Origin: a virus
Reading direction: 5' to 3' (one strand)
IMG/VR virus record: IMGVR_UViG_3300030117_005760
Coordinates: 1 to 48,644 of that record
Length of the DNA: 48,644 bases
The position numbers and the translations under genes are program-made. The number at the start of each line of letters is the position of its first letter. Position 1 is the stretch's first letter. Shown piece by piece: positions 4,147 to 47,169 of the stretch. Under the pieces are notes generated by a model that was given only the letters and a program-made list of their open reading frames with translations, did not search any database and was not told where the DNA came from.

Positions 4147-5262
4147 TTATGGGTTCTCCGGTGTTGGTAATTGTGTGATTTGATATGGGTCTTGTGCGAT
4201 GGGAGTCTCTTCTGGTGGTGTGGGAACTTGACCGTAGTTGGGGTCAAAACCGAAACCGTATATTAACACTAAGTATCCAAGAGGACTGTTTTGAAAACCG
4301 TCTGGTAAATTATATGGTCCCTCTGTTGCATCACCAGTCAAGAACAATGTTTGAATAAATTGATTCAATCCATCATAACCCTGTAGTGCATTTACCTCTT
4401 CAAATGGTCGATTTAAAAGATAATCACTATCAAATTCCCCACTATAATCTGACAAAAGATTATAATATCTGAGTATTACGTCAATCGCATATTGAAAAAT
4501 TAGAAAACTTCCGGTTCCAATTCCGATAGCACCCGGTCCATAACCTGAGTGGAACAAACCGTCATTTGCGTAATTCATTTGCATAAGCCATTCATAAAAT
4601 TCAGGAAAATATTGTTGAAGAAGTTCAGCGGGAACTGCTCCATATGTGTCATTTTCAGGATTCCCTGCCCACGGAATTCCAAAAGATCGCCACCCCCGCA
4701 TTGTTTTAATAATATTAAGATAATCCCCCACACTACCAGTCCATTCATAAAGTCCATTTTCTAACCCGCCATAATCTGGTTTTCCGTTGTTTGGGGGTAA
4801 TTGGGAATCTGGTTGAAAGAAAAGTTCTCCATCATAGTTTGATGAGAAAAACCAACTAGAAGGATCCGGAAGGTCTACGCCATATTCTTGGTTAAATGAT
4901 TCCCAATTCTCACGATACCAACTCGCAGAAGGTAATCCACTTGGTGGACCGTCTCCACCCGGAGGAAACAAGTCATCCATAATTTCAAACATTCTTGTCA
5001 CCAAAGTCATATCATTGTAGCCAATGATGCCATCACCATTGTAGTCAAACATATCTAAGAGGGGTTGTGGAGCATTAGTCATTGGAAACATCGGATAAGA
5101 TTCTTCGCCACTAACTCCACCAATATTCTGGTTTCGGAACATCAAGGGTAAAACTCCTTGATAAGACACTAAATTATAAAGCATAAATTGTCTAAAGAAA
5201 AAATAATCAGAGACTCCGGGTGGATTAACTTCCTCTTTTAAATATTTCTTAAAACTCTTCAT
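4147..5262 (-). CDS. Tagged EF-hand/dockerin-like protein, family member A
   Basis: 371 residues. It begins with the tag MKSFKKYLKEE, which resembles T4 capsid-targeting peptides and holds an LKE site. At about residues 65-90 comes the family core: QPLLDMFDYNGDGIIGYND, a calcium-loop pattern DxNxDGxIxxxD, then a W-x-E-N-W-E segment and LPDPSSWFF. The rest is Asn/Asp/Tyr/Gly-rich, ending in a Pro-rich tail shared with the next gene. Start and stop overlap as TGATG, so translation is coupled with the preceding gene. I infer a capsid-internal or virion-associated calcium-binding protein. A start at 5397 in the same frame was rejected because it lies in the neighbour's tail. Confidence 0.8.
   Translation of the reverse strand: MKSFKKYLKEEVNPPGVSDYFFFRQFMLYNLVSYQGVLPLMFRNQNIGGVSGEESYPMFPMTNAPQPLLDMFDYNGDGIIGYNDMTLVTRMFEIMDDLFPPGGDGPPSGLPSASWYRENWESFNQEYGVDLPDPSSWFFSSNYDGELFFQPDSQLPPNNGKPDYGGLENGLYEWTGSVGDYLNIIKTMRGWRSFGIPWAGNPENDTYGAVPAELLQQYFPEFYEWLMQMNYANDGLFHSGYGPGAIGIGTGSFLIFQYAIDVILRYYNLLSDYSGEFDSDYLLNRPFEEVNALQGYDGLNQFIQTLFLTGDATEGPYNLPDGFQNSPLGYLVLIYGFGFDPNYGQVPTPPEETPIAQDPYQITQLPTPENP
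4151..4240. repeat. 90-bp tail repeat, copy 1
   Basis: This segment, which encodes the C-terminus of family member A, matches 5266-5355 (the C-terminus of member B) at 85 of 90 bases, by my count. Both give the same peptide tail (QVPTPPEETPIAQDPYQITQ then LPTPENP). It indicates a recent tandem duplication or gene conversion. Confidence 0.9.
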
Positions 5263-7067
5263 CACGGGTTCTCTGGTGTTGGTAGTTGTGTAATTTGATA
5301 TGGGTCTTGTGCGATGGGAGTCTCTTCGGGTGGTGTGGGGACTTGACCGTAGTTGGGATCTGGAGGGAAGAAGTAAAGGTAAAGTTCCCGGAACCATTCA
5401 TACTGAAAAATATCATCAGGAACACCAAACTGATTTGTGCTTCCAGATTCAGATGTCAAAATTAGACTTTGCAAAAATCTATTTGCTCCATCAAATCCCC
5501 GAAGAGCGTCTAAGTCATTGAATGATAAACTGTTTGCAAAATCTCTAAAGCCCATCCCGTCTGGAATTTGTCCTTGGAAGTAGGCAATAGTTCCGATGGC
5601 ATCTCTGAGTGCAAATAGGATGTAGGTATCGTTTCTCGGAAAAACAGTACCCAAACCTAAACTCAATATCCCATCTCCATCATAATCTAAATTAGTAACA
5701 AGGAATTCATAAAAATCCGGAAGATATTGTTTAATGAATTCTAGGTCAGGAAGATACCCATTATATGATCCAACGCCATCGCCGTCTGCGGGACCGCTCC
5801 CAAAGCCGTTGTGTAGGGATAAAGAAATCCAATCATCAACGGTTCCCTGCCATTCGTAAAGTCCGTTTTCATATCCTCCATAACCATCTGGTCCCCCATT
5901 TCCCCCCGGAGGAAGTTGTGAATCTGGCTGGAAGAATAAATTTCCAAAGTAATCTGTTGCAAAGAACCAACTGGATGGATCAGGAAGTTCCAATCCAAAT
6001 TCTTGGTTGTAGGATTCCCAGTTCTCAAGATACCAAGCGGCGGTAGGAAGTTCATCTGGTAATCCATTTTGTTCAAAATATGGTTCTAATTGTGAAAAAA
6101 TTTCTCTAACAATGGTTGTATCATTATAACCAATAATCCCATCACCATTGTAGTCAAACAAATCTAGGAGAGGTTGTGGGGCATTAGCCATTGGGAACAG
6201 ATAACGCCCCGCAGTGGCATCGCTTTCGGGACCAAAACCTCTGGGTCTATAAAGAAGTGGAAACTCCACACCGGGCGCGCCTTCCAACAATGAACCCACA
6301 AACTGCATAAACTGTTGATAGACACTGTTATTGACACCTTCGGTGAGGTACGTTTCTTCTTTCAACTTGTTTCGATTGTGTCTGAGTCGTGAATCGTTTG
6401 TCTTACGTCGAAGAATCGCTTTCTCTCCAGATTCAGTATCCCGAATCACTACAGGACTTGTAGGATTTCTCAAAGAAAAGGATCGAATCTGATCGATCAC
6501 AGGACCGTCTTCTTCTTCCTCAATAAACTGTGACCAATGAGAATATCTCTCTTTGCCCTCTTTCATTCGTCTGAACATATCGGGCGTGAGGTCAAAAGTT
6601 CTTCCGTTGAATTTATCGAGTTCTCTCTTGTTTCGTTTCTTGCCAAGTCTTTTATCCATACCTGCGACGGTATCAAAAGAACCACTGGTGTTTGTAAAAC
6701 CAGCAGGACCGGGAACAGGAGCAACATTGGCTTCTTCGTAGATTACCTTGAAGCCTCTTTGCACATAATCGTTTGTTTTGGTTTTGTCGATGACCTCGGC
6801 TTTCTTTGTGTCTGGATTGTAGACAACAGCCTCGTCGGGGGTTTTAGTTTTTTTCAGGGCAAGAACTTTAGAACGAATCGCAGGATCAATATTCAATTCA
6901 TAACTGATTGTCTCTGGAGAGTCAACAGACTGAGAATACATCTTTGGAATTGGTGCTAAGTTGGAACCGGGATAATTATTAGAAAACTCCTCGCTGGTCA
7001 TATCGACGTTGCGAACGTTTTCTAATGCTCTAAGTTTTTCGATTAAATTCTCAAAGTGAATCATCAT
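5262..7067 (-). CDS. Two-part virion-type protein with EF-hand/dockerin-like C-terminal half, member B
   Basis: 601 residues. The first 250 or so are highly charged and include an internal tag-like stretch (HWSQFIEEEEDGP) and YLTEGVNNS, which contains LTE, a possible T4-type protease site. From about residue 250 the protein is closely related to member A: LLDLFDYNGDGIIGYND, W-x-E-N-W-E, LPDPSSWFF and the shared Pro-rich tail; a second calcium loop (DYDGDGILSLGLG) lies further on. It looks like a fusion of a separate head domain to the EF-hand family domain. The ATG is preceded by GAGAGG and overlaps the upstream stop (ATGA). Confidence 0.78.
   Translation of the reverse strand: MMIHFENLIEKLRALENVRNVDMTSEEFSNNYPGSNLAPIPKMYSQSVDSPETISYELNIDPAIRSKVLALKKTKTPDEAVVYNPDTKKAEVIDKTKTNDYVQRGFKVIYEEANVAPVPGPAGFTNTSGSFDTVAGMDKRLGKKRNKRELDKFNGRTFDLTPDMFRRMKEGKERYSHWSQFIEEEEDGPVIDQIRSFSLRNPTSPVVIRDTESGEKAILRRKTNDSRLRHNRNKLKEETYLTEGVNNSVYQQFMQFVGSLLEGAPGVEFPLLYRPRGFGPESDATAGRYLFPMANAPQPLLDLFDYNGDGIIGYNDTTIVREIFSQLEPYFEQNGLPDELPTAAWYLENWESYNQEFGLELPDPSSWFFATDYFGNLFFQPDSQLPPGGNGGPDGYGGYENGLYEWQGTVDDWISLSLHNGFGSGPADGDGVGSYNGYLPDLEFIKQYLPDFYEFLVTNLDYDGDGILSLGLGTVFPRNDTYILFALRDAIGTIAYFQGQIPDGMGFRDFANSLSFNDLDALRGFDGANRFLQSLILTSESGSTNQFGVPDDIFQYEWFRELYLYFFPPDPNYGQVPTPPEETPIAQDPYQITQLPTPENP
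5266..5355. repeat. 90-bp tail repeat, copy 2
   Basis: Partner of the repeat at 4151-4240 (85 of 90 bases identical by my count), encoding the C-terminal tail of member B. Same orientation, offset 1115 bases. Confidence 0.9.
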
Positions 7068-7444
7068 AGACCTCTCAGTGTATTTATGATTTTATTGTCC
7101 AACGGTATACGAGTTATGTCCAAACCGTCTACCTTGTCTTCGGGACAATAATTTAAATACACCAAGAAAGTTTTAAGGAAAGTATGATGTTTTTCTTCGA
7201 TGCGATTGAACAACAATTTGTTCGCCGCAGGGATTCCAAAGACATTAAAAAATGTAATGATATGATTAAGAATCAAACGCTCTTTGAGATTCCCGTTTGA
7301 TTCGTACCGATTGAAGAGTCTTTTGATGTATTTGATTCGATTGAAATCATCATTAAACTCCTCGATACCTTTACAGGCGGGATTATCATAGTGTTTCATA
7401 GCAAAAAGGACGATGTTCTCGTCGTTCAATTTATCAAAGTTCAT
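7064..7444 (-). CDS. Conserved small T4-like phage protein
   Basis: 126 residues. The pattern MNFDKLNDENIVLFAMKHYD followed by KERLILNHIITFFNVFG recalls a small all-helical protein that I remember as widely conserved in marine T4-like phages, where it sits among structural genes and has no assigned function. The N-terminus LNDE could be a variant of the tag, but the rest looks like a compact globular domain. It overlaps both neighbours by a few bases (TGATG-type coupling), so it belongs to the tagged-protein operon. Confidence 0.72.
   Translation of the reverse strand: MNFDKLNDENIVLFAMKHYDNPACKGIEEFNDDFNRIKYIKRLFNRYESNGNLKERLILNHIITFFNVFGIPAANKLLFNRIEEKHHTFLKTFLVYLNYCPEDKVDGLDITRIPLDNKIINTLRGL
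7081..7088 (-). promoter_or_regulatory. Possible late promoter box (CATAAATA)
   Basis: Reverse-strand CATAAATA, a one-base variant of the T4 late box, 13 bases before the ATG of the 5262-7067 gene. It lies inside the 3' end of the upstream gene, and its closeness to the ribosome site weakens the call. Confidence 0.3.
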
Positions 7445-7959
7445 TACACAATCGATGCAGTAATTTTAAATCCAGTTCCAACCATTTCAATATCAAAGGA
7501 GACATCCATAGCAGGAAGGGTCTTTTCATAAGGAATTTGTCCTACCATTCCCATATCATCAGCAAAATCATCTCTTTCTTCGTCGCCGGGATCTCTACCC
7601 AAAGCACGACCACCGAAGTTGAGATTCACAACGTAAGGCTCACCAGAGTTCATAGCCATATTGATATCTTTGGCATTCAGATCAAAAGAAAGTCCAGTCA
7701 TATTTAACTTGGTTCTTGCTTTTGTGATTGCTGTCACTGGATCTCTAACAATACCAGAGAGTTCAGCGTTCAGACCGGCTTCAATCATTTTGATGTTGGT
7801 TGAAGTTGGATAACCTGTCTTTTGTGACCCGTCACCCATTCCACCGAGATCAGTGCCAGTGATATCACCTACATTGGTTCTATCATTCCCCGCGTAAGCA
7901 GTGGGACCACTGTAGTATTCCTCTGAAAGTGTGTTTCTGATCTCTTTAAATGATTTCAT
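7444..7959 (-). CDS. Tagged virion-type protein, unknown function
   Basis: 171 residues. It starts with a tag-like sequence MKSFKEIRNTLSEEYYSG, in which LSE is a possible T4-type prohead protease site. A Gly/Thr/Asp-rich linker follows, and the C-terminal half looks like an alternating beta domain (PAMDVSFDIEMVGTGFKIT). Start and stop overlap the neighbours by ATGA. I do not recognise a family; a small structural or cargo protein is the most likely role. Confidence 0.72.
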   Translation of the reverse strand: MKSFKEIRNTLSEEYYSGPTAYAGNDRTNVGDITGTDLGGMGDGSQKTGYPTSTNIKMIEAGLNAELSGIVRDPVTAITKARTKLNMTGLSFDLNAKDINMAMNSGEPYVVNLNFGGRALGRDPGDEERDDFADDMGMVGQIPYEKTLPAMDVSFDIEMVGTGFKITASIV

Positions 7960-8255
7960 CTTCCAATCCTTGCCATAACAATTTTTTCAAATGCAGCCAC
8001 TTTTGAAGTGGTGACTTCCTCATTAAGTTCCAACGGAATCTTGTTGAAGTGCTTTTTAACAATTGTATTTTTTTCTTGAAGTGTTTTTGCGTTTTCTAAA
8101 ACATCCTTAGCAGCGTCATCAACGTGCTGTTGTGTCATATTAGATGGAAGATCGGGCTTAAAGCCTGACATAACCTTTTTTGCCGCCTCGATTGCGGGGT
8201 TCAAAGAACCCTTGTCTTCGCTAAACGGTCCTGAACCGAAACCATACTTGCTCAT
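7956..8255 (-). CDS. Small helical protein of the tagged-protein operon
   Basis: 99 residues, mostly helical and Lys/Ala/Glu-rich (NPAIEAAKKVMSGFKPDL), starting MSKYGFGSGPFSED. It overlaps the large fusion gene upstream and the 7444 gene downstream by ATGA. No domain is recognised. Confidence 0.68.
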   Translation of the reverse strand: MSKYGFGSGPFSEDKGSLNPAIEAAKKVMSGFKPDLPSNMTQQHVDDAAKDVLENAKTLQEKNTIVKKHFNKIPLELNEEVTTSKVAAFEKIVMARIGR

Positions 8256-10531
8256 ATTGAGCCTCCTTTGTTAAAGTATGTATCTGCAACTTCATTTACC
8301 TGTCCGGGTGTCATTTGCTTATACTTTTTTGTTCTCTCCGGAGTTCCCTCCAAAGTTCCTTTATGATATTCTTGATCGGCAGCCTCTTCCTCAGTGCTGC
8401 GTTTTGCCATATTTGTAGCGGTTCCAAAGATAACATCCTTGTAGTCATCACCATAACGACTTTTAAAACCTTTTGCTCGTTTTTTCAAACTCTTAGCGTA
8501 TTTATCACGAAGTTTGATTTCTTTCTTTGTAAGTTTTTGCTCTTCTATTCTTTCAGTTTTAATAAACTTCTTGCCGGGATCGACAATGATATGGAATTCT
8601 TTCATAAAGGGAACACCAATCAAAACTGGTGTGCCTTTATTACTACGATCATCCAGAGTAAACTTACGCTTTGGATATTTCTTACCCATAAACTCAATAT
8701 CAAGTTCGATCATTGGACGCTGCTCTTTGTTTGCAGCAACCGCACCTTGCAGAACCGTCAAGACATCAAGAAGTTCATTTTGATACTCTTCACCATTCGT
8801 TTCCCAATAAACAATACCGTCACGCACCTCATATGAGTCCGCGTGAATCGAGTTCACAACCATATTGCCTGTGTCAAACTTTGCTTCAAGATCGCCGATC
8901 TCTGGAATTGATATCATTTCTCTACGACCAACAACTGTGGGTGGATATTTCCAGTTGTCCTTGTCGAGAACGTGATCGAGGAACTCTGCGGTTACGTTTT
9001 GACCAGTTGCTTTTTCGATACCCTCGGATCCGGGTGAAGAATTTACTTCAATTACAAAGGGTTTTCTTGTTTTTCCAGAAATGGCAATATCTACTCCACA
9101 GAAGTAAGCACCAACAGCCTTGGCAGATCGTTTTGCAATTTTAGCAATTTCTTCGCTAATCTGCACTTCTTTAATATCACCACCAAGAGAGAAGTTTGTA
9201 CGGAAATCGTTTTTGACCTTTCCTCTTTCCATCACTGCGATAACTTCGCCATCCAATACGACGACTCGCATATCATTGTCAATATTAAGATATTCTTGAA
9301 GAATCAATTCTTGCTCATCATCGATTTTCATCACTGCGTCGATAGTGGACTTGAGTGATTGTTCACTTTCAAGAATAAACACGCCCTTGCCCTTGGAGCC
9401 ACGGATTGTTTTGGCAACGACAGGGAACTCTCCACCGACCTGTTCGTGAATCTCATTGATTTTTTGTGGGTCTGTAATCAGTGCGGTTCGTGGCGTGGGC
9501 AAATCTGCCTCGACCAGAGTCAATGCCGTACGATACTTGTCAGAGCAGATGTCGATGGACTCTCTGGAGTTAATCACAAAGAAACCATCCTTCTCAAAAG
9601 AAGAGATCAGGTCAAGCGTTCCGCTGTTTCCGGCTGCTGCTCCACGAACCACAACAACAGTATCGTGACGGTTTGCAACAAATTCTTCACCGTCTTTGTT
9701 AACGACCGTTCGAGTACCGTCCTCATTTTTGATGGATCGTGCGTATGGAACAAAGGCAACGAAACAATCAGTGCCTCTCTCAGCACATTCTTCTTTGATT
9801 CTTCCGGCGGTCTTCATCAAGTTGCCGTCGTTTTCTTCACTGTATCCAGAAAAAACTAAAACTTTGATTTTTTCTGGTGGGGTTTCGACCTCTTCGATGA
9901 TGTCTCCTCCAGAGACAGCCATACCCTTCCGAACATCGTCAAAGAGTTTTCGTGCCTGACGATCAGAAGCAGCAGAGGGAACACCTTGTCGGAATGATCG
10001 GAAATCACCTTCGGCGGCAAACTTTCTCATTTTGGATGCAGACATTCCGGTAACATCGGTTGCATCCGGATCGCGTTGTCCTGCACTCACGACCTCAAAA
10101 GATTCAAGATTAAATGATTTGTCTGGATCGGGGTGATTGACATATGGGCGAATTGTTCTTTCAAATTCTGCCGTTCTGTCACCTCCAACGACAACAGTGA
10201 CATCTTTATATCCTTGATCGGCAAGATAGCCAATGGCATCAAAGACTGTGCGTACCGAAGTATTATAAATAACATTAGCCCCTTTAAAAAGGGACTTCAT
10301 ATGTTTTGTTTTCGTTCTTGAATCGAGCGGATTCTTTTTCTTATCTTGAGAATGGCTGGCAAAGATAAAATTGTCAGCCCTTCGTTTTTTCGCCTCTGCG
10401 AGAACTTTGTTGATTAACAGTTCGTGACCAGATGTGGGTGGATTGAAGCGTCCGAAGGTTAGAACCGCCTTCTTACCTCTTCGCTCCTCCACAATAGCAT
10501 AGTGATTCACTCCAACATCGTGTGGTTGCAT
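8252..10531 (-). CDS. Three-domain fusion: nucleotidyltransferase + RimK-like ATP-grasp ligase + retropepsin-like protease
   Basis: 759 residues from the ATG at 10531, which has AGGAGG 11 bases upstream; a GTG at 10543 overlaps that site and is less likely. Domain 1 (about 15-175) is a cytidylyl/NMN-adenylyltransferase-like fold with TFGRFNPPTSGH (T/HxGH motif) and GMSASKMR. Domain 2 (about 220-520) is an ATP-grasp ligase of the RimK type: VVAKTIRGSKGKGV for nucleotide binding and FVIEVNSSPG for metal binding. Domain 3 (about 535-660) matches the RimK-associated aspartic protease family: GRREMISIPEIG, AKFDTGN (catalytic DTG) and DDRSNKGTPVLIGVPFM. RimK adds glutamates to protein tails and RimB-type proteases act with it. 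A tail of about 100 basic residues follows. Substrates are unknown. Confidence 0.85.
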   Translation of the reverse strand: MQPHDVGVNHYAIVEERRGKKAVLTFGRFNPPTSGHELLINKVLAEAKKRRADNFIFASHSQDKKKNPLDSRTKTKHMKSLFKGANVIYNTSVRTVFDAIGYLADQGYKDVTVVVGGDRTAEFERTIRPYVNHPDPDKSFNLESFEVVSAGQRDPDATDVTGMSASKMRKFAAEGDFRSFRQGVPSAASDRQARKLFDDVRKGMAVSGGDIIEEVETPPEKIKVLVFSGYSEENDGNLMKTAGRIKEECAERGTDCFVAFVPYARSIKNEDGTRTVVNKDGEEFVANRHDTVVVVRGAAAGNSGTLDLISSFEKDGFFVINSRESIDICSDKYRTALTLVEADLPTPRTALITDPQKINEIHEQVGGEFPVVAKTIRGSKGKGVFILESEQSLKSTIDAVMKIDDEQELILQEYLNIDNDMRVVVLDGEVIAVMERGKVKNDFRTNFSLGGDIKEVQISEEIAKIAKRSAKAVGAYFCGVDIAISGKTRKPFVIEVNSSPGSEGIEKATGQNVTAEFLDHVLDKDNWKYPPTVVGRREMISIPEIGDLEAKFDTGNMVVNSIHADSYEVRDGIVYWETNGEEYQNELLDVLTVLQGAVAANKEQRPMIELDIEFMGKKYPKRKFTLDDRSNKGTPVLIGVPFMKEFHIIVDPGKKFIKTERIEEQKLTKKEIKLRDKYAKSLKKRAKGFKSRYGDDYKDVIFGTATNMAKRSTEEEAADQEYHKGTLEGTPERTKKYKQMTPGQVNEVADTYFNKGGSI

Positions 10532-10602
10532 ATGCTTGATCACCTCCTAGTTCCGGTTTTGATTTGAATGTAGCCACCCACATCTGGTCACGAACTGTAA
10601 AA

Positions 10603-10897: not shown

Positions 10898-11085
10898 TTA
10901 GTAGACTTTTTCTTGCGAGTTGCTTTTTTCTTCTTGGGTGTTGGGGCAGGAACAGGTGTTTCAACAACCTTTCCGAAATCCGGTCCAAACCCAAATTTGG
11001 CAAGCATTTTTCTTCCGTAAGCAGAACTGCATTTTTCGTATCCACCGGGAACTGCAAATTTTTTATATTCATTTGGAAGTTTCAT
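10894..11085 (-). CDS. 63-residue protein with Lys-rich tail (copy A of a pair)
   Basis: MKLPNEYKKFAVPGGYEKC opens a small domain of about 40 residues, followed by a Pro linker (VPAPTP) and a basic tail. I chose the ATG at 11085, which overlaps the upstream stop as ATGA, rather than a TTG at 11094. The KKFAVPGGYEKCSSAYGRK portion is compact and may be folded. Function unknown; basic tail as in the neighbour. Confidence 0.62.
   Translation of the reverse strand: MKLPNEYKKFAVPGGYEKCSSAYGRKMLAKFGFGPDFGKVVETPVPAPTPKKKKATRKKKSTK
10896..10933. repeat. 38-bp direct repeat, copy 2
   Basis: Partner of 10765-10802 (one mismatch), coding for the basic tail of the upstream paralogue. Confidence 0.85.
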
Positions 11086-12278
11086 TTTGTCCAATCCTTT
11101 GCTACTGTAAAGTTTGCTCGGGAAAACTCCATACGATCTACAAGTTTCACAGCGTTCCCGCTCTTAGAAATTGCCACAAACCCTTCGGGATCTGTGACTC
11201 GATAGCCGCTATCAGTTTTAATGAACGACGGCATAGTATTTAGTGCCTGCAACTTCTTTAGAACAATCATCTTTGCCTGTGCAAGATAATAGTGTGCAGT
11301 AAAAATTTGATCCAAGTTTCGTGAGATTTTTTTCAAATACGAAAGCATTTCATTCATTTCTTGCTCGACTCTTTCTCTCGCCCGGTCGGTTTTCAATCCT
11401 GCAATCTTTGTTTCAAACCGTGACTTCATCATCGCAGCAAAACCCTTTGATGTTCCCTGCTCGACACCACCACGAACATTCTGATTTAGGTAAATTTTAA
11501 TAATATCCTTCATCGGACCACTAACAATTTCTTTAATAATCTTGCGTTCTGATTTTGTAATTCTTTCTGTGCCTTTGATGAAACGTCGAATCTGTTCTTC
11601 TTGTTTTGCCGTCATAGTTGCCTTGCCAGAAACATCACGGTATGCAGCATCTTGATACCAAACCTTGTTTGTCTTTTTCAAATTAGAAACATCTGCACCA
11701 AACGACGCGGCTAGATTGGCGATGGTGTTTCCCGAGTATGTCGTATGAAACACAATACCCATATTTGATGATTTAATTTTCTTTGCCAAATCACTGTTCG
11801 CCGGAACCGCGTAGGTGATTGTATTGGGTGTAAATGAAAGCATCGACTCTCCCCCAATCGTTTGACTAGAAAGATCGCCCTTTGTGTAGAGCATATCTCC
11901 TTGAAGAACACCAGTGATTCCCAAACCTTTCAAATTGGCAAGAGCAACTTTTAATTTATCAGCCAGACCGCCACCGTGGTTGGCATCGATGTCTGCGTTG
12001 GTGTAGTTGATTTTTGGTGTTTTGTTGAAGAGTGATTTTGTCGCAACAAAGAACTTACCGTTTTCTGGATTGATTCCAGCGAAGACGGCAGGCGCACCAT
12101 CCCACTTTACAGTCACATCAATCGGACTCTTTACATCGCCCTTCAACATATCAGTCAAAGACTTAAGAAAAGCAATCGCTTCACTCACACCGACTGCACC
12201 TCGATTGAACAACTCGTCCTCAAGATGCTCAAGGTGCAAATTCTTTTGTTCAGTTAAAAAACGAGAAAACTCAATCAT
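11082..12278 (-). CDS. Tagged protein with nucleic-acid-ligase/capping-type nucleotidyltransferase motifs
   Basis: 398 residues. The N-terminus MIEFSRFLTEQ is a virion tag with an LTE site. The next region carries what look like the ordered motifs of covalent nucleotidyltransferases (DNA/RNA ligases and capping enzymes): motif I KWDG (Lys58, TVKWDGAPAVF), motif III-like GVLQGDMLY (about 123-131), IIIa-like GIVFHTTYSG, motif IV-like DPEGFVAI and motif V-like AVKLVDR. Such enzymes form a Lys-AMP or Lys-GMP intermediate and join or cap nucleic acid ends. Insertions between III and IV are larger than usual. I believe relatives exist in cyanophages as unnamed proteins. The tag implies capsid delivery. 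The start has GGAGG. Confidence 0.68.
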   Translation of the reverse strand: MIEFSRFLTEQKNLHLEHLEDELFNRGAVGVSEAIAFLKSLTDMLKGDVKSPIDVTVKWDGAPAVFAGINPENGKFFVATKSLFNKTPKINYTNADIDANHGGGLADKLKVALANLKGLGITGVLQGDMLYTKGDLSSQTIGGESMLSFTPNTITYAVPANSDLAKKIKSSNMGIVFHTTYSGNTIANLAASFGADVSNLKKTNKVWYQDAAYRDVSGKATMTAKQEEQIRRFIKGTERITKSERKIIKEIVSGPMKDIIKIYLNQNVRGGVEQGTSKGFAAMMKSRFETKIAGLKTDRARERVEQEMNEMLSYLKKISRNLDQIFTAHYYLAQAKMIVLKKLQALNTMPSFIKTDSGYRVTDPEGFVAISKSGNAVKLVDRMEFSRANFTVAKDWTK

Positions 12279-12280
12279 AA

Positions 12281-13390
12281 TTATCCTCCGGGTGGTGGTG
12301 CAAATCCCGGTGGGGGTGGAGTAGGGGGTGGCGTGGGTGGTCCCTTTGGTGGTTCTTTACCATCCTCTTGTCCCCAATTCGATAAAAGTTGAAGAAGGTC
12401 TTCAAAGTTTGCTCCGTCCTCTCCCCAATCGGAAAGAATTTGAAGTAACTTTTCATAATCACTTTGTTCACCGTCGCCGTTTGGATTGGGTGGGATTTCA
12501 TCGATAATTCCGGCATCGACAAGAATTTGGAAATACTGTTGTAAGTATTCAAAAACAGTCAGTCCTTGTTGTGCTTCGGCATCTTGGGCTTCAGGTGAAT
12601 ACATCACATCTGCTAAGAAGCCAAGAACTCCACCTTCGCTATTCATAATTTCGATCAAATCGTTATCGGTCAAATCAACTCCAACATCTCCCATATATCT
12701 GATGGTTCCATTAAGAATAATCGCAGTATACATATCAGAAGTTGTATCTGGGTTTGCGGGAGTATAGAAGGGATCAAATACACCATCTCCATTCAAATCC
12801 CCAAATTGCTCAAGTAATTCACCCTGTTCTGTGTGAATGTTCCTAAAGAAATTAGTAAGCATAAGACCTTGAATGAAGGAGACGAAGGCTCTAATATCTT
12901 TTGATAAACTAAATGAGGATATTCCCCCCTCCTGATTTGGGACTCGATCTGCGTCCGGAAGAGTAGTAGTGCCTCCCGGTGGAACTTGGAAAAAACTAAA
13001 CGGATCAGGCAAATCAAGTCCGAATTTTTCGTTGAGTTCTTGCCAATTTTCTCTAAATTCATTTGCAAACATAAATGGAATATCAAATACATCATTCTCG
13101 GAGGCATATTGCTCCATTTGCTCTCTGATGATTTGGACGTACATCATATCATTTGGACCGATGTAACCATCACCATTATAGTCAAACATATCGAGCAAAA
13201 ATTGTGGTGCGCCAACAATTACATAGGAATACCCTCCTGCTGGTGCGGTTCCTGAAAGGTTTGCCAACATACTAGAATATCCAACACCAGCCATCGAAAA
13301 TAATCCCTGTCCACCAGCCAGTAAAATATAAGAGTAAAGATCACCTTCACCCTCTAAATCCTCTTTTAAAAATCGTTTGAAACTTTTCAT
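12281..13390 (-). CDS. Tagged EF-hand/dockerin-like protein with planctomycete-style tail motifs, member C
   Basis: 369 residues beginning with tag MKSFKRFLKED (LKE). The family core follows: FLLDMFDYNGDGYIGPNDMM, W-x-E-L-N-E-K-F-G and LPDPFSFF. A second calcium loop FGDLNGDGVFDPF appears near residue 195. Near the C-terminus two short repeats, KLLQILSDWGED and DLLQLLSNWGQED, match the last helix of planctomycete secreted dockerins, which also end in LSxWG. The protein finishes with a Pro/Gly-rich tail. Coupled with the next gene; the start has AGAGG. Confidence 0.8.
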   Translation of the reverse strand: MKSFKRFLKEDLEGEGDLYSYILLAGGQGLFSMAGVGYSSMLANLSGTAPAGGYSYVIVGAPQFLLDMFDYNGDGYIGPNDMMYVQIIREQMEQYASENDVFDIPFMFANEFRENWQELNEKFGLDLPDPFSFFQVPPGGTTTLPDADRVPNQEGGISSFSLSKDIRAFVSFIQGLMLTNFFRNIHTEQGELLEQFGDLNGDGVFDPFYTPANPDTTSDMYTAIILNGTIRYMGDVGVDLTDNDLIEIMNSEGGVLGFLADVMYSPEAQDAEAQQGLTVFEYLQQYFQILVDAGIIDEIPPNPNGDGEQSDYEKLLQILSDWGEDGANFEDLLQLLSNWGQEDGKEPPKGPPTPPPTPPPPGFAPPPGG

Positions 13391-17086: not shown

Positions 17087-17094
17087 ACAGTTAT

Positions 17095-17736: not shown

Positions 17737-17784
17737 ACCGAATCCCCTTTGTATAAAAATGTCCGTGTAAACGAACAGTTTTAT

Positions 17785-36719: not shown

Positions 36720-36758
36720 ATGAGACTTGATCCACGACTAAGAAAGGAAATTCGATGA
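36720..36758 (+). CDS. 12-codon mini-ORF encoding an isolated tag peptide
   Basis: Reads MRLDPRLRKEIR and stops at the ATGA start of the lysozyme gene. Its first 20 bases are identical to the start of the tagged gene at 37882 (MRLDPRLDEEL). An AAGGAAAGAAG ribosome site precedes it. It is either a relic of a deleted tagged gene or a translated leader coupling into the next gene. Confidence 0.5.
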   Translation: MRLDPRLRKEIR

Positions 36759-37885: not shown

Positions 37886-38361
37886 GACTTGATCCACGAC
37901 TTGATGAGGAGTTGGGTCCGGGTTTCACTCCCGCACCAAGTAACGTGCAGATCAATACAGGATCTTTTAGCGGTATTGCAGGTGCGGCGGATGATGTTGT
38001 CACATCCGGTGAAAAATCTGCAAAAGTCAAAGTGGTTCGTGATAAAAATACCGGAAAGTTAACTCTTCAATCAGTCGTGACGGTCTATGCAGGACCGGAT
38101 CGTGGTTTTGTTGAAGTCGATGACGATGATGAAAGATTGTTTTACAATCGCAGAGTCGCAAGGCAATCAGTCCAACAAAATATGGACGTTGCTCGTTTCC
38201 TTGCACAGAATGGTATGGGTCAGTCGGATGCAATGCGTCTTGCCCAACGTGGTGCAGAGGATGGAAATGAGATTGCCAATGGTCGGCGTGCCACTTCCTT
38301 CTACGGTAATGGTGGCAACTCTTCAATGATTAATCAAAGAAACTCACGAGACTTCTATTGA
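37882..38361 (+). CDS. Tagged virion-type protein, unknown function
   Basis: 159 residues with the clearest second-class tag, MRLDPRLDEELGPG (LDE). The central part (KVKVVRDKNTGKLTLQSVVT) is beta-like and the end is Asn/Ser-rich (GNGGNSSMINQRNSRDFY). Overlaps upstream by ATGA and downstream by TGATG. No known domain. Confidence 0.72.
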   Translation: MRLDPRLDEELGPGFTPAPSNVQINTGSFSGIAGAADDVVTSGEKSAKVKVVRDKNTGKLTLQSVVTVYAGPDRGFVEVDDDDERLFYNRRVARQSVQQNMDVARFLAQNGMGQSDAMRLAQRGAEDGNEIANGRRATSFYGNGGNSSMINQRNSRDFY

Positions 38362-39287
38362 TGAAAAGTTTCAAGCGTTTTTTAAGTGAAGAAGATCAAG
38401 GACCGAATGAGTGGGAAAAGTGGAGATTGATGTTAAGTAAAGCCTATTTTAGCGAATCGGGCAATATCGACAATGAAGGATTTTTAGGGAGATTTAGAAT
38501 GACAACCGGAGTTCGCTCACTTGGTTCTCCCTATGTGACACAGACTATGCTCGATCACTTTGACTTCAACGGTGATGGAATCATTGGTCAAAATGATATC
38601 GCCTATGGTCAAATTATTTCAACTGCAATCTTTTATTATGGTATAGAAAATGGAGTTGATAATGTTCCTCCGTTTATGATCGCGTCTGAGTGGAGAGAGA
38701 ATTGGGAGTCAATCAATGAACAGTACGGATTTGATTTCCCAAATCCAGATGGATTCTTTGGCATTCCTGATGTTCCAGATGGTAATTACCCGGATACTTG
38801 GGATCCAGATGATGCTGTTCGTTTAAGTGTTGATTTTTTACCCGCTGTCGTTGATGGCTGGACTAATATTTCAGGCACAATTAGTAACACAGCAACTTTT
38901 GCTGATTTGTATCCAGAAATGTTCGCAGAATTATTACAAATGTACGATTTTAATGGCAACGGAAAAATTGATGGTGGATTTCCTCCAAATCCAAACAACT
39001 ATAACGTAGATTCCTATCTTGCATATTTTATATTTGAGATTCTAGCAGCAAGGGGATTTGATACATCACAACAACTACCCGAATCTCTTTATGGTGCAGG
39101 AGGATTCGCAAATCTTGTTCAAACCTACTTCTACACAAGAGGAGATATGAGTGATACATTGAGTGTTATCCTTCAACGAATTATTGACTCAGGCTATGTG
39201 ATTCCAGAACTTCCTGCTCCACCACCCCCACCACCAGAAGAAATTCCTCAATCACAAGCACCGCCACCTGAGATTGGTATGGCATAA
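38361..39287 (+). CDS. Tagged EF-hand/dockerin-like protein, member E
   Basis: 308 residues, tag MKSFKRFLSEEDQGPNE (LSE). Core MLDHFDFNGDGIIGQNDIA, W-R-E-N-W-E-S-I-N-E-Q-Y-G, and a second loop MYDFNGNGKIDGGF near residue 195. Pro-rich tail (PPPPPPEE). It is the right-hand-cluster copy of the family seen at 4147-14371 on the other strand, 24 kb away, showing that copies moved between clusters. Confidence 0.8.
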   Translation: MKSFKRFLSEEDQGPNEWEKWRLMLSKAYFSESGNIDNEGFLGRFRMTTGVRSLGSPYVTQTMLDHFDFNGDGIIGQNDIAYGQIISTAIFYYGIENGVDNVPPFMIASEWRENWESINEQYGFDFPNPDGFFGIPDVPDGNYPDTWDPDDAVRLSVDFLPAVVDGWTNISGTISNTATFADLYPEMFAELLQMYDFNGNGKIDGGFPPNPNNYNVDSYLAYFIFEILAARGFDTSQQLPESLYGAGGFANLVQTYFYTRGDMSDTLSVILQRIIDSGYVIPELPAPPPPPPEEIPQSQAPPPEIGMA

Positions 39288-39295: not shown

Positions 39296-40657
39296 ATGAA
39301 CTTTGACAACGCATTTGAAAAAGACTCAAGAGTTGCCATTCGGATTCAGACTCCGATGCCTGACTTTGATAACAAGGTCGGTGGACTGAATCCTGCCGGT
39401 TTGGATGTCGGTGGTATTACAGATAAAGTCGATGCAGTCAAAGAGAAAATGCTCAATGATTTTCTTGAGCCTCTGATGGATGCAGGGTTGATTGTTCTGC
39501 GAGGCAAATCTCACGACACGGCAGAGTTTATTGTAAAAAATCCTGCCGATCAAGAAAAAATTGTGCAAACCGCACAGACGATTGGTTTTTTGTTGAATGA
39601 TGCCGGAGAAAAGGCTGCACAACAAAGAATTCAACAGACTCAACAAGCGGCACAGGTGATGCCACAAGAGTTTGCTCAACAGTCCTTCCAGCAACTTGGC
39701 ATTGAACCACCCAAGCAACAGCAACAGGGCGGTGGTAATCCAATGGCTGCAATGATGGGTGGTGGCGGTATGCCACAACAGCAACCACAACCACAACAAC
39801 AGCAACGACCGGAAGTCGGTATGCCCGGAAAGGGTATGCAGCCCAGACCACAACAGGCAGACGCACCGACACAACGTATGCGTAATCTGCAAAAGTTGAT
39901 GGTGAGCGGTGGTCTTGAACCAACCAAGGAACCGTCAAAGACAGGACTCGGAACGATTAGTGATCCAAAAGTCGCTCGTTATATGATTACTGCAATCTTC
40001 AATGGCAATCCCACAACAGATGGAGAAAGAATCCATAAAGATATGCGAAATCGTTTTAGGCTTATGGCTGGCGGGATTGATAATTCAGCAGGGGATGGGA
40101 CATTTTCATTAAATTTTTCAACCAAAGATGAGTCAAGAGCAAATGAATTAGTAAATTATATTGAAGCAAAATTTAAAGATAATTTAGAAATGATTCTTAC
40201 AAATCGTGAGGATCTTGAAATTGCCTCTCAGAAAAAACAGGGTCTTGATCCCACAACAGGAAAACCATTGGGTCAACAACAACAAGGTGGTGGAATGATG
40301 CCGGGTATGGGCATCGGTGGTATGAGCGAGGAAAGAGCCTTGCCGCTTCGTCTGAATCCTAGAGTGGATGGTAGTGAGGAAGAGGGAGATGCTGCACCGC
40401 CGCCGCCAACTAGTAATCCCTTGATGACATCAAATGTAAACACAGCAGGTGGATTCACACAACACGGATTTAGTTGGGAAGACTTCTTCTGTGAATTCTT
40501 TGGTATTTGTGGTGATGACATCAACATAGAGGATGATGGAACAGATCCAGATGGACCCGCAGACGGCGACGATGACATCCCAGATGCAGACACACCCGGA
40601 CTTTACCCCGCGATGGGATTCCCAAAAGGAGAGGAACCAGATGAGCGATTCCAATAA
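39296..40657 (+). CDS. Gln-rich virion-type protein
   Basis: 453 residues. The N-terminus MNFDNAFEKDSRVAIRIQ is tag-like. Then comes a helix with ADQEKIVQTAQTIGFLLNDA, a Gln/Met/Gly-rich low-complexity part (QQQPQPQQQQR), a small folded domain (FNGNPTTDGERIHKDMRNRF), an internal tag-like LPLRLNPRVDGSEEE, and a Cys-containing acidic end (FFCEFFGICGDDIN). The internal tag suggests a fusion of two former cargo genes. Confidence 0.65.
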   Translation: MNFDNAFEKDSRVAIRIQTPMPDFDNKVGGLNPAGLDVGGITDKVDAVKEKMLNDFLEPLMDAGLIVLRGKSHDTAEFIVKNPADQEKIVQTAQTIGFLLNDAGEKAAQQRIQQTQQAAQVMPQEFAQQSFQQLGIEPPKQQQQGGGNPMAAMMGGGGMPQQQPQPQQQQRPEVGMPGKGMQPRPQQADAPTQRMRNLQKLMVSGGLEPTKEPSKTGLGTISDPKVARYMITAIFNGNPTTDGERIHKDMRNRFRLMAGGIDNSAGDGTFSLNFSTKDESRANELVNYIEAKFKDNLEMILTNREDLEIASQKKQGLDPTTGKPLGQQQQGGGMMPGMGIGGMSEERALPLRLNPRVDGSEEEGDAAPPPPTSNPLMTSNVNTAGGFTQHGFSWEDFFCEFFGICGDDINIEDDGTDPDGPADGDDDIPDADTPGLYPAMGFPKGEEPDERFQ

Positions 40658-41597
40658 ATCTATTTTTACAAAAGCCCTTCAAAATCTTAATCACCCGTTG
40701 TTGTCCGAGATTACACGACGAACCACCTATCGTGGTCACTCTCCCGGTGTCAAGCCAACAACAGGCATCAAGTTGAACCTCCCCAAGACCTCAACGATGG
40801 CAGCAAAGATGGAACGTGTTCTCGCAGACAAGTCACCCGAAGGCAAAAAGCGAATGAAGCAAATGAACAATCTGGTCATCGGTCGTGAAGAGGACGGCGA
40901 CAAGATTAGCCTTGAGTTCAAGACAGCATCATCCCGTGAGCGATTCCGCAAGATGATGAATGAACTTAGCGAGAATGTGCATCTTGACGAAGCAACTCAA
41001 CACATCGTAAATGTCAATGTAAGCAGAACAGGTTTTAGAAAACTTGAAGCGATGATTGCAAGTCTTGACGGATACCGAGAGTCAGATTATAGTGATGGGA
41101 AGGCGAGATTTTACTTCGACGCAAAGAAACACGATAGTGCTGAACGAAAGAAGGTAGCAGAGTTTATCAAGAAGACTCGCGGTGCGGAGTTTAGTCACGC
41201 AATCAAGGAAGATGTGCAACTTGACGAAGGCAGCGAAATACTCTTCTCGTTTGACAACCCAATGAAAGCCGGTGCATTTGCAACTCGTATTAAGAGAGAC
41301 AAACTTGCAAGTGAGGTAGATCGTTATGTCAGCGGTCGCAAAGAAATGGTTCAAATCATTATGCACCCAAACGACTACGAGAGAAACGATATTGAAAAGT
41401 TGGCAAAACAATACAAAGGTCAACTGCGTGAAGAACGAGCAATGACATATGTGATTGATCGCAAAACAAAGAAAATTGTTCACGGTCCCACTGACACAGG
41501 GGACGCGAAACTTTACTTAAAGAAACAAATTCAGCCCGGAAAGTTTATGATTAGACAAATTCGTGGTGCAGCCAAGAAAGTTGGCGATACAGTATAA
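40641..41597 (+). CDS. Modular protein with EDVQLDE linker
   Basis: 318 residues from the ATG at 40641. Two or three small alpha/beta modules (about 70-90 residues each: HIVNVNVSRTGFRKLEAMIA; EILFSFDNPMKAGAFATRIK) are joined by ENVHLDEA and EDVQLDEG. Both linkers contain L-D-E followed by A or G, the T4 prohead-protease pattern. The third module ends in KIVHGPTDTGDAKLYLKK. A longer frame start at 40533 was rejected because it lies in the neighbour's tail. Confidence 0.72.
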   Translation: MSDSNKSIFTKALQNLNHPLLSEITRRTTYRGHSPGVKPTTGIKLNLPKTSTMAAKMERVLADKSPEGKKRMKQMNNLVIGREEDGDKISLEFKTASSRERFRKMMNELSENVHLDEATQHIVNVNVSRTGFRKLEAMIASLDGYRESDYSDGKARFYFDAKKHDSAERKKVAEFIKKTRGAEFSHAIKEDVQLDEGSEILFSFDNPMKAGAFATRIKRDKLASEVDRYVSGRKEMVQIIMHPNDYERNDIEKLAKQYKGQLREERAMTYVIDRKTKKIVHGPTDTGDAKLYLKKQIQPGKFMIRQIRGAAKKVGDTV

Positions 41598-43274: not shown

Positions 43275-43550
43275 ATGGCATCTACCACAACCACAAAATG
43301 GCTCACTCCATCATTCGTCGCAACTGTTGTTGGATGGGCATTGACAATTTCAATTTTTATCTGGAACTTCTCTGCAAATCACGCAGAAATGGAGTACCGT
43401 ATCCAGTCTCTTGAAGAGAAAAACACGGCATTGGAAGAAAGAATGAAAGATGCCGATGCTCTCCGAACCACAATTCAAACCCAACTCGCAGAAATTAAAA
43501 CGGATCTGATTTGGATTCGTAATGAACTTTCAACACGGAAGGATAACTAA
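43275..43550 (+). CDS. TM plus coiled-coil protein
   Basis: 91 residues: one TM helix (about 15-32, FVATVVGWALTISIFIWNF) followed by a coiled coil (YRIQSLEEKNTALEERMKDA) to the end. This is the topology of an inner-membrane spanin, but its position among virion-type genes also allows a small structural role. GGAG lies 13 bases before the ATG. Overlaps the next start by one base (TAATG). Confidence 0.64.
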   Translation: MASTTTTKWLTPSFVATVVGWALTISIFIWNFSANHAEMEYRIQSLEEKNTALEERMKDADALRTTIQTQLAEIKTDLIWIRNELSTRKDN

Positions 43551-45208
43551 TGTATTTCAACCCACCCACCGGAAAAAATCCATCAAACCCGTTTTATCAC
43601 AGATCGATTGAAGAACAGCGTCGAGAGATGCAAGAAGCCGTGACGGTCGAACTTGAATTCAAGAAAGATGCCGATGGTGCGGCTGCCGTTGGTTCCGAAA
43701 CTGGACGCAGAGGTTTGGTTGTCAGTGGCAAGAAAGTCAAAGATAAAGTTTATAAAATGACTTTTACAAATAATGCCACAATGAATAAGTTTATGGACAA
43801 ATATGAAAATAAACTGAACGAAGGCATTGAAGAACTTGAAGAAGCCGTCGTTCAGGTTGGTTTTAAAGATGATTCTGCTGGTGCTGCCGCAGTGGGTTCC
43901 GAGACTTCACGAACAGGTTTGCTCGTTGGAGGCAAGAAAGTCAAAGATGGAACATATCGTCTTACCTTCAAGAACGACCGTATGAAAGATAAATTTATGA
44001 AGAAATACAATTCAAAGATTGTAGATGCGGTTGAACTCAACGAAAGCACAGCCGAGTATCGTGCGATGATGAAGAGATACAAGGGCAGCGATATGGAGAA
44101 GGTCTTCAAGATGCTGCGTGATGAGGGCTTCAAGGTTGGTGAGCAAGATGACACTCTCGTTCGCAATCTGCTCAAGAGACACAGAGGTAATGTCAAGAAG
44201 GTCGTTGACCAGATTGTGAAAGACTACCCCGGTAAGTTTGATGTCAACAGAATGATGATGGACGATGTGCAGGTTGATGAAGAGAAAAAACTTGACTCAA
44301 GAGGTTTAGGTGTGACTCGTCAGAGTGGTCTTGGCTCAAAGGCAACCGCAAGAAATATCGTAAAAGGTCTGGGCGATGCTGACGGTCCATTTACAGTTGT
44401 TGCAATGAAGAGAGACAAGGTAATCAAGCAAGAAACCACCAAAAGAAGAGATATGCTTCCTGCCATCATCAGCACGATGCGAAAGGAAGTCGGATCTGGT
44501 GTGACTATTGCTATTGAAGACAAGAAGGGAACCATTCGTAATACCTTCAAAGAAAGTGTGCAACTTGATGAAGAAGTGCAAAACGTTGGAATTCATTATG
44601 TTATTCTTCAACAATTTCTTCGCAGTTATTGGGGTCTACCGCCACAAAGTCCCCAGAGCGGACCACCATATGGTGACGCTGGTGATGGTGTAATCCCTCC
44701 AGATATGCTTAGACTTATTGACTATGATGGAGATGGTCAAGTAACTATGAATGATTTAAATATCAGTTTGTCTCTTTCTCCACCCCCTCAAGAGTATATT
44801 GATATGATGCCTCCGGGAACAGCAGTGCTTGGAGTTCCCGCATACTGGTATCAGGCGGTGAATGGTATTCCTTACTATTGGTCTGCTACGAATGTTGTTC
44901 AAGAACCTGCGATGACCAAACAAGAATTGCTAAAGTTGCTTCAAAAGGATGCAATTACATACAATAATCCTCCAGAGGATGCACCTACTCTACAAAGCAA
45001 GGTTCCAATCGAGCCACCAAGTGGAGATGGTGGATTCCCACCTGATGGGGTTCCGAACCCCTTCCCCCCAGAAACAATCAAGTTTGGAAAGCCGCAACCA
45101 AGTGATGGTGGTCCGAATAATCCTCCGTGGCTCCCACCACAATTAGGTATGATGGAAAGAAAAACCATCGACAATTTCAAGGATTATATCGCAGAGGGAA
45201 CCGACTAA
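43550..45208 (+). CDS. Modular protein with tandem repeats, VQLDE linkers and EF-hand module (member F)
   Basis: 552 residues beginning MYFNPPTGKNP, shared with the next gene. Two tandem modules of about 65 residues (VELEFKKDADGAAAVGSETG and VQVGFKDDSAGAAAVGSETS) follow, then a helical domain, DDVQVDEE, another module, ESVQLDEE, and an EF-hand/dockerin-like part LRLIDYDGDGQVTMNDLN. The Pro-rich C-terminus ends NFKDYIAEGTD. The VQLDE linkers contain LDE, a likely proteolytic site. It joins the modular family and the EF-hand family in one chain. Confidence 0.75.
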   Translation: MYFNPPTGKNPSNPFYHRSIEEQRREMQEAVTVELEFKKDADGAAAVGSETGRRGLVVSGKKVKDKVYKMTFTNNATMNKFMDKYENKLNEGIEELEEAVVQVGFKDDSAGAAAVGSETSRTGLLVGGKKVKDGTYRLTFKNDRMKDKFMKKYNSKIVDAVELNESTAEYRAMMKRYKGSDMEKVFKMLRDEGFKVGEQDDTLVRNLLKRHRGNVKKVVDQIVKDYPGKFDVNRMMMDDVQVDEEKKLDSRGLGVTRQSGLGSKATARNIVKGLGDADGPFTVVAMKRDKVIKQETTKRRDMLPAIISTMRKEVGSGVTIAIEDKKGTIRNTFKESVQLDEEVQNVGIHYVILQQFLRSYWGLPPQSPQSGPPYGDAGDGVIPPDMLRLIDYDGDGQVTMNDLNISLSLSPPPQEYIDMMPPGTAVLGVPAYWYQAVNGIPYYWSATNVVQEPAMTKQELLKLLQKDAITYNNPPEDAPTLQSKVPIEPPSGDGGFPPDGVPNPFPPETIKFGKPQPSDGGPNNPPWLPPQLGMMERKTIDNFKDYIAEGTD

Positions 45209-47169
45209 TGTATTTCAACCCACCACAAAACAATCACAATGATTTCTATCATCCACTGAATCAAAAGTTGAATGAACAGAAATTCACCAAGGCACGAGTG
45301 ATGTTCAAAAACGCGAGCGATGCAAGGCGTGATATGAGAGTTGCCAAGGAAACTGGCTTGTATGAGCGTGCTACAGAAAAGCCGAGTGGCAAAGGTCGTG
45401 TTTATGAAATCACTTTCAAGAGTGAAGGTCAGTTCCGACGCTTTATGAGTCAATTTGAAGTTGATCTGATGGAGTATCCACTCAAAGAAAGCCGTGACGA
45501 TTTTGACTACCTTGACGTTGAGGCTGCACGACAAGATGCCAAGTTGGAAGCACCAAAAGTTGTAAAAACAAGAAAAGGCTATCAAGTGATGGTTTACAGC
45601 CGTAAGGTCAAAAAGTTCATTCCACAGGGACCACCCCACAGAAGCAAAGCCGCAGCCGAGAAGGATGCGAAGATGTTTGAGGATGTGCAACTTGATGAAA
45701 CCGTGAAAACAGCATTCAAGGGTAGAATAGGAAACAGGTTGACAAAACCCAATTCTATTGGCTCTCGTATGCTGCAAAATTTTAGAAAAAATGCCAAGCC
45801 CGGTGATGGCTTTTACGTCATTGATGGCGGCGGCAGTTTTGCTGTTGAAATCTATCGTGTTGATGAAATGCCATATGGTGATGAAGTCAAAAAATTAGGT
45901 GATTCTGATACGCAAAACATTCGTGGTAAAAAGAGCCTTGTGCAACTTGTCGCAATCAAGGAAGATGTGCAACTTGATGAGACTAACTTCCGATTCCCAC
46001 AGCCCGGAGAGGATTATGGCGACCTTGCAAAGTCCATCAGTGATCCTTCGGGAAGAGCCTTCCCTGATATGAGTAAGGCTGAACTAAAGAAGAGAAGTGA
46101 CGAAGTTGATCGTAAGTTTGCAGCGGTGATGCGTAAACATAAACGCACGAAAGTCGGTGAGGTGCTTGACCTTCTTGACAAGGATGGTGGTACAAGACTT
46201 TACAAAGATAGTGACATCAAACAAATTGGCAAATATCTCACTAAATTCAAAGACAATGTAAGAAAAGTCGCACATCAAATGATGATTGATGTAATGGAGG
46301 GCGACGATTACTTGGCAAAGAAAAGAATTCCGGTCAGGGAAGATACAGAGATTGTGAATTTCAATTTTAAAAATAGATCAGATGCAATTGCATTTGGTCA
46401 TCAGGCAAAGAAACAGGGTCTTGCTCTTCGTGCCAAGGAGTTTGAGTCGCAGGGCAATGAGACATCACATCTTGCCGTTGACACAAGTAAATTGAAAACC
46501 ATTGGACCCAAGTTAAAAAAATTAGCCAAGAAGTATATGGGCAAATACAGCACGACCGGCGGTGGCGAAGAAATTGATAAAATGATGCGTGAGGATGTGC
46601 AACTCGATGAAGCAACTCCCGGTGACACAAGAGTAGTGACCAAGGGCGACCAGAACCAGTACGAAAGAATCTCTCGTGCCTTGACTGCTGCTAAAAAAGC
46701 AGGAAAGATTGCTGGTTATGAGGGTACTGTCTTTAATCGAAGTAAAGGTGAAGTCACTCTTATCTTTGACACCAAGGCACACAAACCTGCGAGTGAAAGA
46801 CGTAAAGTGGCTAAGATGATCAAGGACTTCGGACTTGAATTCCACCATTCTATTGAAGAAGGCTTACGTCAAGCGATGTCCGGTCCACGCGAAACTGAAT
46901 CCCAGAAGCGTAAGCGTATGGAAAAAGACAACTTTGATCTTTACAAGAAGCGACAAAATAGAGTCGCTGCTTTGCGTGGTGACAAGTCCAGCCGACAACT
47001 CACTTCAAAGCAACAGCGTGACTACCTACGTCGGGTAAATCTCGATCAGATCAGAGCGATGGAGGACGTTGATATGCAAAATGTCACCGCGTCACAACTT
47101 CGTGCAATCAAAGAAGCAAAAGTTTACAAAACTCTTAATAATTTAAGAAAGGAAAATGACAATGGCTGA
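45208..47169 (+). CDS. Long modular protein with repeated EDVQLDE linkers
   Basis: 653 residues from the ATG at 45208 (TAATG overlap). Starts MYFNPPQNNHNDFYHPLNQK (with LNE next), then several small alpha/beta modules separated by EDVQLDETVK, EDVQLDETNF and EDVQLDEATP, each with LDE before T or A. Modules resemble those in the 40641 and 43550 genes (for example RRKVAKMIKDFGLEFHHSIE). I infer a polyprotein-like precursor cut by a prohead protease into small packaged domains. The C-terminal 80 residues are basic. Confidence 0.74.
   Translation: MYFNPPQNNHNDFYHPLNQKLNEQKFTKARVMFKNASDARRDMRVAKETGLYERATEKPSGKGRVYEITFKSEGQFRRFMSQFEVDLMEYPLKESRDDFDYLDVEAARQDAKLEAPKVVKTRKGYQVMVYSRKVKKFIPQGPPHRSKAAAEKDAKMFEDVQLDETVKTAFKGRIGNRLTKPNSIGSRMLQNFRKNAKPGDGFYVIDGGGSFAVEIYRVDEMPYGDEVKKLGDSDTQNIRGKKSLVQLVAIKEDVQLDETNFRFPQPGEDYGDLAKSISDPSGRAFPDMSKAELKKRSDEVDRKFAAVMRKHKRTKVGEVLDLLDKDGGTRLYKDSDIKQIGKYLTKFKDNVRKVAHQMMIDVMEGDDYLAKKRIPVREDTEIVNFNFKNRSDAIAFGHQAKKQGLALRAKEFESQGNETSHLAVDTSKLKTIGPKLKKLAKKYMGKYSTTGGGEEIDKMMREDVQLDEATPGDTRVVTKGDQNQYERISRALTAAKKAGKIAGYEGTVFNRSKGEVTLIFDTKAHKPASERRKVAKMIKDFGLEFHHSIEEGLRQAMSGPRETESQKRKRMEKDNFDLYKKRQNRVAALRGDKSSRQLTSKQQRDYLRRVNLDQIRAMEDVDMQNVTASQLRAIKEAKVYKTLNNLRKENDNG

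Follow-up and report, generated by a model that had tools for sequence, protein, structure and literature searches.

Capsid-type leader peptides and linker-joined polyproteins in a genome fragment of a marine T4-like phage

Why should proteins as different as a phosphatase, a ligase-like protein, and several EF-hand proteins begin with short peptides resembling the capsid-targeting sequences of T4? The question is raised by IMG/VR virus contig IMGVR_UViG_3300030117_005760, a 48,644-base fragment (the window) of a marine T4-like phage, in which an initial annotation had placed T4-like tags on at least 11 genes. We consider it quite probable that they belong to a T4-like head-cargo system in which targeting tags are combined with protease-cut polyproteins.

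The contig encodes a RuvC-like resolvase, Hsp20, a phrog_459 peptidase, a CobS-type AAA protein, a GroES-like gene, and four tRNAs. No capsid, scaffold, or other head gene was recognized in the 48.6-kb fragment. Judged by its DUF6267 protein, its closest kin are uncultured contigs (73% identity in the case of L001), and the named phages with kin of this protein are Methylophilales phage Melnitz, Pelagibacter phage HTVC008M, and cyanophages. Annotated phages offered no close DNA match to positions 10000 to 34000. The gene order is mosaic. The range 4147 to 47169 had been described as one tagged set; the tags lie in two gene clusters within it, but about 17 kb consists of untagged genes (tRNAs, hsp20, the GroES-like gene, and the CobS-type gene). 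The long ORF at 30018 to 31307 (+) is an antisense shadow of the CobS-type gene (30075 to 31292).

Leader peptides and the proteins that carry them

Mutational data on the first ten residues of T4 IPIII indicate that targeting depends on residues 4 and 7 and processing on residues 8 and 10 (PMC9026906). The strict pattern derived from these data, M..[FY]..[FY][IL].E (aromatic at 4 and 7, I or L at 8, and E at 10), was found at six gene starts in the window (Table 1), compared with 0 in the reversed sequence and 0.03 in shuffles; applied to 150 kb of T4, the scan returned only ipII and ipIII. Leader peptides of the strict type are real. Three other leaders were classed as looser, their spacing being longer or offset as in T4 IPI, whose leader, MKTFKEFTSTTTPVSTITEA, is longer than the ten-residue strict form. 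All strict and looser tags end in an (L/I)xE processing site. This motif occurs within the first 18 residues of 15 of the 25 proteins in the two gene clusters and of 6 of the 42 others (Fisher p = 1.5e-4, indicative only because the clusters were drawn after the tags had been seen).

Table 1. Leaders, fusion proteins, and polyproteins of the window. A slash within a peptide follows the last residue of the putative processing site.
Feature	Position	Strand	Carrier or remarks
Strict tag MKSFKKYLKE/E	5233-5262	-	EF-hand paralogue 4147-5262
Conserved protein with fifth EF-hand paralogue at C terminus	5262-7067	-	From alignment and relatives' ends
Candidate internal cleavage site ETYLTE/G	6339-6356	-	Fusion junction of 5262-7067 protein
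IPI-like looser tag MKSFKEIRNTLSE/E	7921-7959	-	Protein 7444-7959
Cytidylyltransferase, RimK ATP-grasp, and ATP-dependent Zn protease/retropepsin-like fusion	8252-10543	-	Single protein
Strict tag MIEFSRFLTE/Q	12249-12278	-	DUF6267 (ligase-like) protein 11082-12278
Strict tag MKSFKRFLKE/D	13361-13390	-	EF-hand paralogue 12281-13390
Strict tag MKSFKRFLKE/E	14342-14371	-	EF-hand paralogue 13394-14371
Degenerate leader VNINSRKLINE/E	15461-15493	-	Protein 14372-15493
IPI-like looser tag MIRFNNFINQKILNE/A	16356-16400	-	PAP2 phosphatase 15711-16400
Strict tag MKDFRTFITE/E	17057-17086	-	Protein 16397-17086
Second-type leader MKIDPRLNE/E	34795-34821	+
Second-type leader MRLNKRDIFE/G	36003-36032	+
Second-type leader MKINQRFDE/E	36755-36781	+	Lysozyme-like protein 36755-37885; no L/I at P3
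Second-type leader MRLDPRLDE/E	37882-37908	+
Strict tag MKSFKRFLSE/E	38361-38390	+	EF-hand paralogue 38361-39287
Polyprotein 1	40641-41597	+	VHLDE (40977-40991), VQLDE (41214-41228); 2 linkers, 0.009 expected
Polyprotein 2	43550-45208	+	VELNE (44030-44044), VQLDE (44558-44572)
Polyprotein 3	45208-47169	+	VQLDE (45685-45699, 45967-45981, 46597-46611); 3 exact, 0.002 expected

The leader peptides quoted in the initial annotation are all present, and their bodies had been called unrelated. Four of the six strict tags, however, are on one EF-hand family, the mutually paralogous MKSFK(R/K) proteins (34% to 36% identity to the first member in the alignment), and the window therefore holds only three independent strictly tagged bodies, namely, this family, the DUF6267 protein, and the 16397-17086 protein. 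When the relatives' loci were added to the window, 99 strict tags were distributed over 33 unrelated body clusters. No relatives of the EF-hand proteins were found in viral_contigs or genome_contigs, where searched. The true start of EF-hand gene 4147-5262 is internal to ORF 4147-5397, and homologues of the 5262-7067 protein in L001 to L004, L009, and L013 stop short of its EF-hand part.

The tag on one body may be strict, loose, or absent in different phages. Homologues of the 16397-17086 protein in L001 and L002 also have a strict tag, and nearly all of 85 DUF6267 N termini retain an aromatic/[IL]xE leader ahead of KNxHLEHLED. The 7444-7959 leader is conserved in five relatives in its MK[STK]FK start and xE end. 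The degenerate leader of 14372-15493 has a strict counterpart, MKTFKRFIIEE, in L001, where the homologues of both 14372 and 15490 are strictly tagged, indicating tag gain or loss on one body. The tag is weak or missing in several DUF6267 neighbours and in many homologues of the cytidylyltransferase, and the DUF6267 homologues of S-PM2 and S-SM1 lack one as annotated. Judged from these sequences, such variation is as would be expected of a detachable address label.

In the model of the DUF6267 protein, residues 1 to 11 have a pLDDT below 50, and most of the body is modelled well. K58-W-D-G (the KxDG motif) is invariant, and the best fold match, a weak one (E = 0.06), is DNA ligase IV; the motif and the weak fold matches are the grounds for a tentative reading as a ligase-like, ATP/NAD-dependent nucleotidyltransferase. 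A partial match of the 16397-17086 protein (-) was to a family that NCBIfam calls N-acetyl-ornithine deacetylase (E = 3e-15), and it fell far short of the family cut-off. CTAAATA is located at 17092 to 17098 (-), six bases upstream of its gene start, and also just before the L001 and L002 homologues. A late promoter (MTAAATA) before the tagged operon was set aside as evidence, the enrichment being weak (17 versus 9.7).

Four genes (34795, 36003, 36755, and 37882) begin with a second type of leader, which does not have the aromatic residues at 4 and 7, and for this reason they were not filed as T4-type tags. The (L/I)xE motif had been ascribed to the leaders in general, and this holds for the strict and looser tags and for three of the second type, but not for MKINQRFDEE. 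The sequence M[KR]LDPRL[DE]E was found in none of 2.9 million viral contigs. The C termini KGIR-stop and KGLR-stop of the 34795 and 36755 proteins were rejected as a tag, since they represent the ribosome-binding site of the next gene and an ATGA overlap.

Linkers and modules of the polyproteins

Counted with the pattern (V/I)(Q/E/H)(L/I)(D/E/N)E, genes 40641, 43550, and 45208 have two, two, and three linkers, respectively, versus about 0.01 expected in each. Polyprotein 2 contains two copies of one module, an EF-hand module, and a C-terminal NFKDYIAE/GTD, and has a further site, VQVDE (44267 to 44281), without L/I at P3. The modules between the linkers are small, mostly 65 to 100 residues, and a C-terminal stretch of the cytidylyltransferase fusion recurs as a polyprotein module. 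Modules recur in other orders among relatives L115 to L118, L138, L142, and L143: the order m1-m2-m3-m4-m5 of the window is replaced by m2-m5-m3 in L115, by m2-m1-(polyprotein 2 module) in L138, and by (polyprotein 2 module)-m5-m2 in L118. Many different proteins, from 22 viral contigs, contain the linker motif EDVQLDEA, whereas its scrambled version EDLQVDEA was found in one protein in 6 contigs; some EDVQLDEA matches fall in ordinary-looking proteins of other phages.

In relative L120, the module duplicated in polyprotein 2 is joined via EEVELDE/A to a core-like protein, in the gene order gp20, core-like gene, core-like protein-module fusion, gp21, and gp22 (genes named from their position and their resemblance to the head cluster of the 86-kb relative G005). 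Of all the observations, this fusion ties the modules most directly to the prohead. A core protein cleaved by gp21 is expected to have several (L/I)xE sites between its pieces and to be located in the gp20-gp23 head cluster. The polyproteins have such sites, but no head gene is near them, and because they lie outside the head cluster they were not filed as prohead core proteins (gp67/gp68/gp22-like).

A MAFFT alignment of all of polyprotein 3 with scattered modules proved unusable, and its m4b-m5 tract was modelled with AlphaFold2 instead. Two beta-alpha-beta modules were predicted with moderate confidence (mean pLDDT, 66), separated by a linker with a pLDDT below 50, and a Foldseek search with this two-module model returned tandem ferredoxin-like folds, both designed and natural; the two modules are accordingly modelled as ferredoxin-like. 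In the open-licence literature searched, no description of such polyproteins was found. Other tagged or modular proteins of the relatives include L121 8037-8561, L017 9272, and L143 6483, and among the modular ones are apparent HNH-nuclease modules and a 1037-residue polyprotein.

Head genes of relatives and virion-associated homologues

The gp21-type protease and the scaffold that the initial annotation advised looking for were not found in the 48.6-kb fragment, but five of 12 related contigs, G005 among them, encode an S77 (gp21-type) protease together with gp23. The gp23 sequences of three relatives have, before the capsid domain, the sites FLSE/AAP, FLRE/AAP, and YLKE/AAP, a motif shared with the tags. 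Like the tags, the linkers, the module shuffling, and the module-core fusion of one relative, these protease and capsid genes are established by computation.

The fusion protein 8252-10543 has a weak leader. Its homologue in S-SM1, a gene labelled T4-GC190, begins with a perfect tag, MKKFSAFLNE/A, and the cytidylyltransferase T4-GC190 was detected in purified S-SM1 virions (PMC3037559). NMNAT-like proteins are reported from virions of S-CBWM1, S-SZBM1, S-SCSM1, and S-CREM2 (PMC10665884, PMC9602691), although co-purification is possible according to the authors of the former study. The virion-associated cytidylyltransferases (S-SM1, S-SCSM1, and S-CREM2) are homologous to the N-terminal domain of the window protein, which differs in its weak leader and in its fusion to RimK ATP-grasp and protease-like domains. 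The capsid interior, which had been suggested as the destination, is supported for the MKSFKRFLKE-type tag by the conserved key residues, the 33 bodies, the protease and gp23 sites of the relatives, and this virion-detected homologue family.

A gene at 24810 to 25448 (-) belongs to the S-adenosylmethionine lyase family (PF23780); a SAM hydrolase is reported from S-CREM2 virions (PMC10665884). The region 25548 to 26012 (-) encodes a destabilase-like lysozyme whose start resembles a signal peptide.

A proposed head-cargo system and its alternatives

We infer packaging, cleavage, and ejection in the present virus, as well as the functions of the modules, along the following lines. The phage would pack its prohead with a large protein cargo whose members are exchangeable. 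The N-terminal T4-type targeting sequence of the DUF6267 protein, the EF-hand family, and the 16397 protein would bind the scaffold core, and the PAP2 phosphatase and the 14372 and 7444 proteins probably carry the same sequence. A gp21-type (S77) prohead protease would remove the tag after (L/I)xE, and the same enzyme would cut the polyproteins at (V/I)x(L/I)(D/N)E linkers inside the prohead, releasing the modules; KEDVQLDEATPG and SRFLTEQKN are candidate target peptides. The cargo would be ejected along with the DNA and act early in the host, so that the particles probably deliver a mixed enzyme cargo. A further proposal, to which we give even weight for and against, is an evolvable cargo platform of marine T4-like phages in which prohead protease sites serve as recombination joints, and small effector modules are strung together, reshuffled at the linkers, freed in the capsid, and injected alongside the tagged enzymes.

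As far as sequence can tell, the strict tags match the already described internal-protein system of T4, in which diverse bodies share a single conserved targeting sequence (PMC3012670). The window tags resemble those of IPI, IPII, and IPIII, which are processed by gp21, in the 10-residue leader, critical residues, spacing, and (L/I)xE site (PMC9026906, PMC3012670), and the 76-residue mature IPI is comparable to the modules. In contrast to T4, the putative cargo here is larger and partly enzymatic; it includes paralogous EF-hand proteins, strings of modules that have internal sites, and a C-terminal tag-like FKDYIAE/G in polyprotein 2. The giant phages phiKZ and SPN3US also cleave their head and ejection proteins at several positions following E; however, their long propeptides are chopped and then discarded (PMC10052503), whereas the pieces in the window resemble folded modules, and the window's relatives have a protease of the T4 type, unlike gp175/gp245 of phiKZ and SPN3US.

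The leader might instead be a translation-initiation or recombination cassette (a ribosome-binding site plus first codons) spread by gene shuffling and having no targeting role, as the near-identity of two MKSFKRFLKE copies at the DNA level and the mosaic gene order would allow. We regard this as very improbable: tags sharing one peptide pattern differ in codons, DUF6267 leaders vary at most other positions yet retain aromatic/aromatic/[IL]/E, and a family with a perfect tag was detected in virions (T4-GC190 of S-SM1; PMC3037559). Alternatively, the tags could be genuine and the VxLDE linkers flexible spacers of intact multidomain proteins for host takeover or virion structure. Linker cleavage is predicted, and some linkers lack L/I at P3 (VQVDE, and VEQVDE in relatives), but VxLDE satisfies the gp21 rule and is joined to a prohead core protein in L120, modules are reshuffled at the linkers, and the exact motif has a far greater diversity of contexts than its scrambled control, which makes intact spacers unlikely.

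Targeted cargo may or may not extend to the second-type leaders. Common to four consecutive genes with different bodies and different codons, and with (L/I)xE in three of the four, they could tentatively be viewed as a further class of prohead-targeting sequence; they could also be a local family trait that has nothing to do with the capsid, given that they have no T4 counterpart and no occurrence in viral_contigs and that no relatives of the lysozyme-like protein were found (viral_contigs/genome_contigs, where searched).

What would be new in the head-cargo system is that marine T4-like phages extend it to a broad cargo, some of it enzymatic, and to polyproteins built as module strings with protease-type joints. 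If correct, it would allow "hypothetical" phage proteins that enter the host at the start of infection to be predicted by a rule based on sequence, provide a mechanism for the recurrence of cytidylyltransferases in cyanophage virions, and point to libraries of small injected modules, which may counter host defences.

Four neighbouring secreted-looking proteins are encoded at 17095 to 20802 (-). One, a dockerin-like protein, had no relatives in genome_contigs; one has a PEP/MYXO-CTERM-like tail. Three have C-terminal dockerin/EF-like repeats (DLNEDGIVGFTDLLQVLSD...LSDWGDC), which we take to be a possible hint of a planctomycete-like host.
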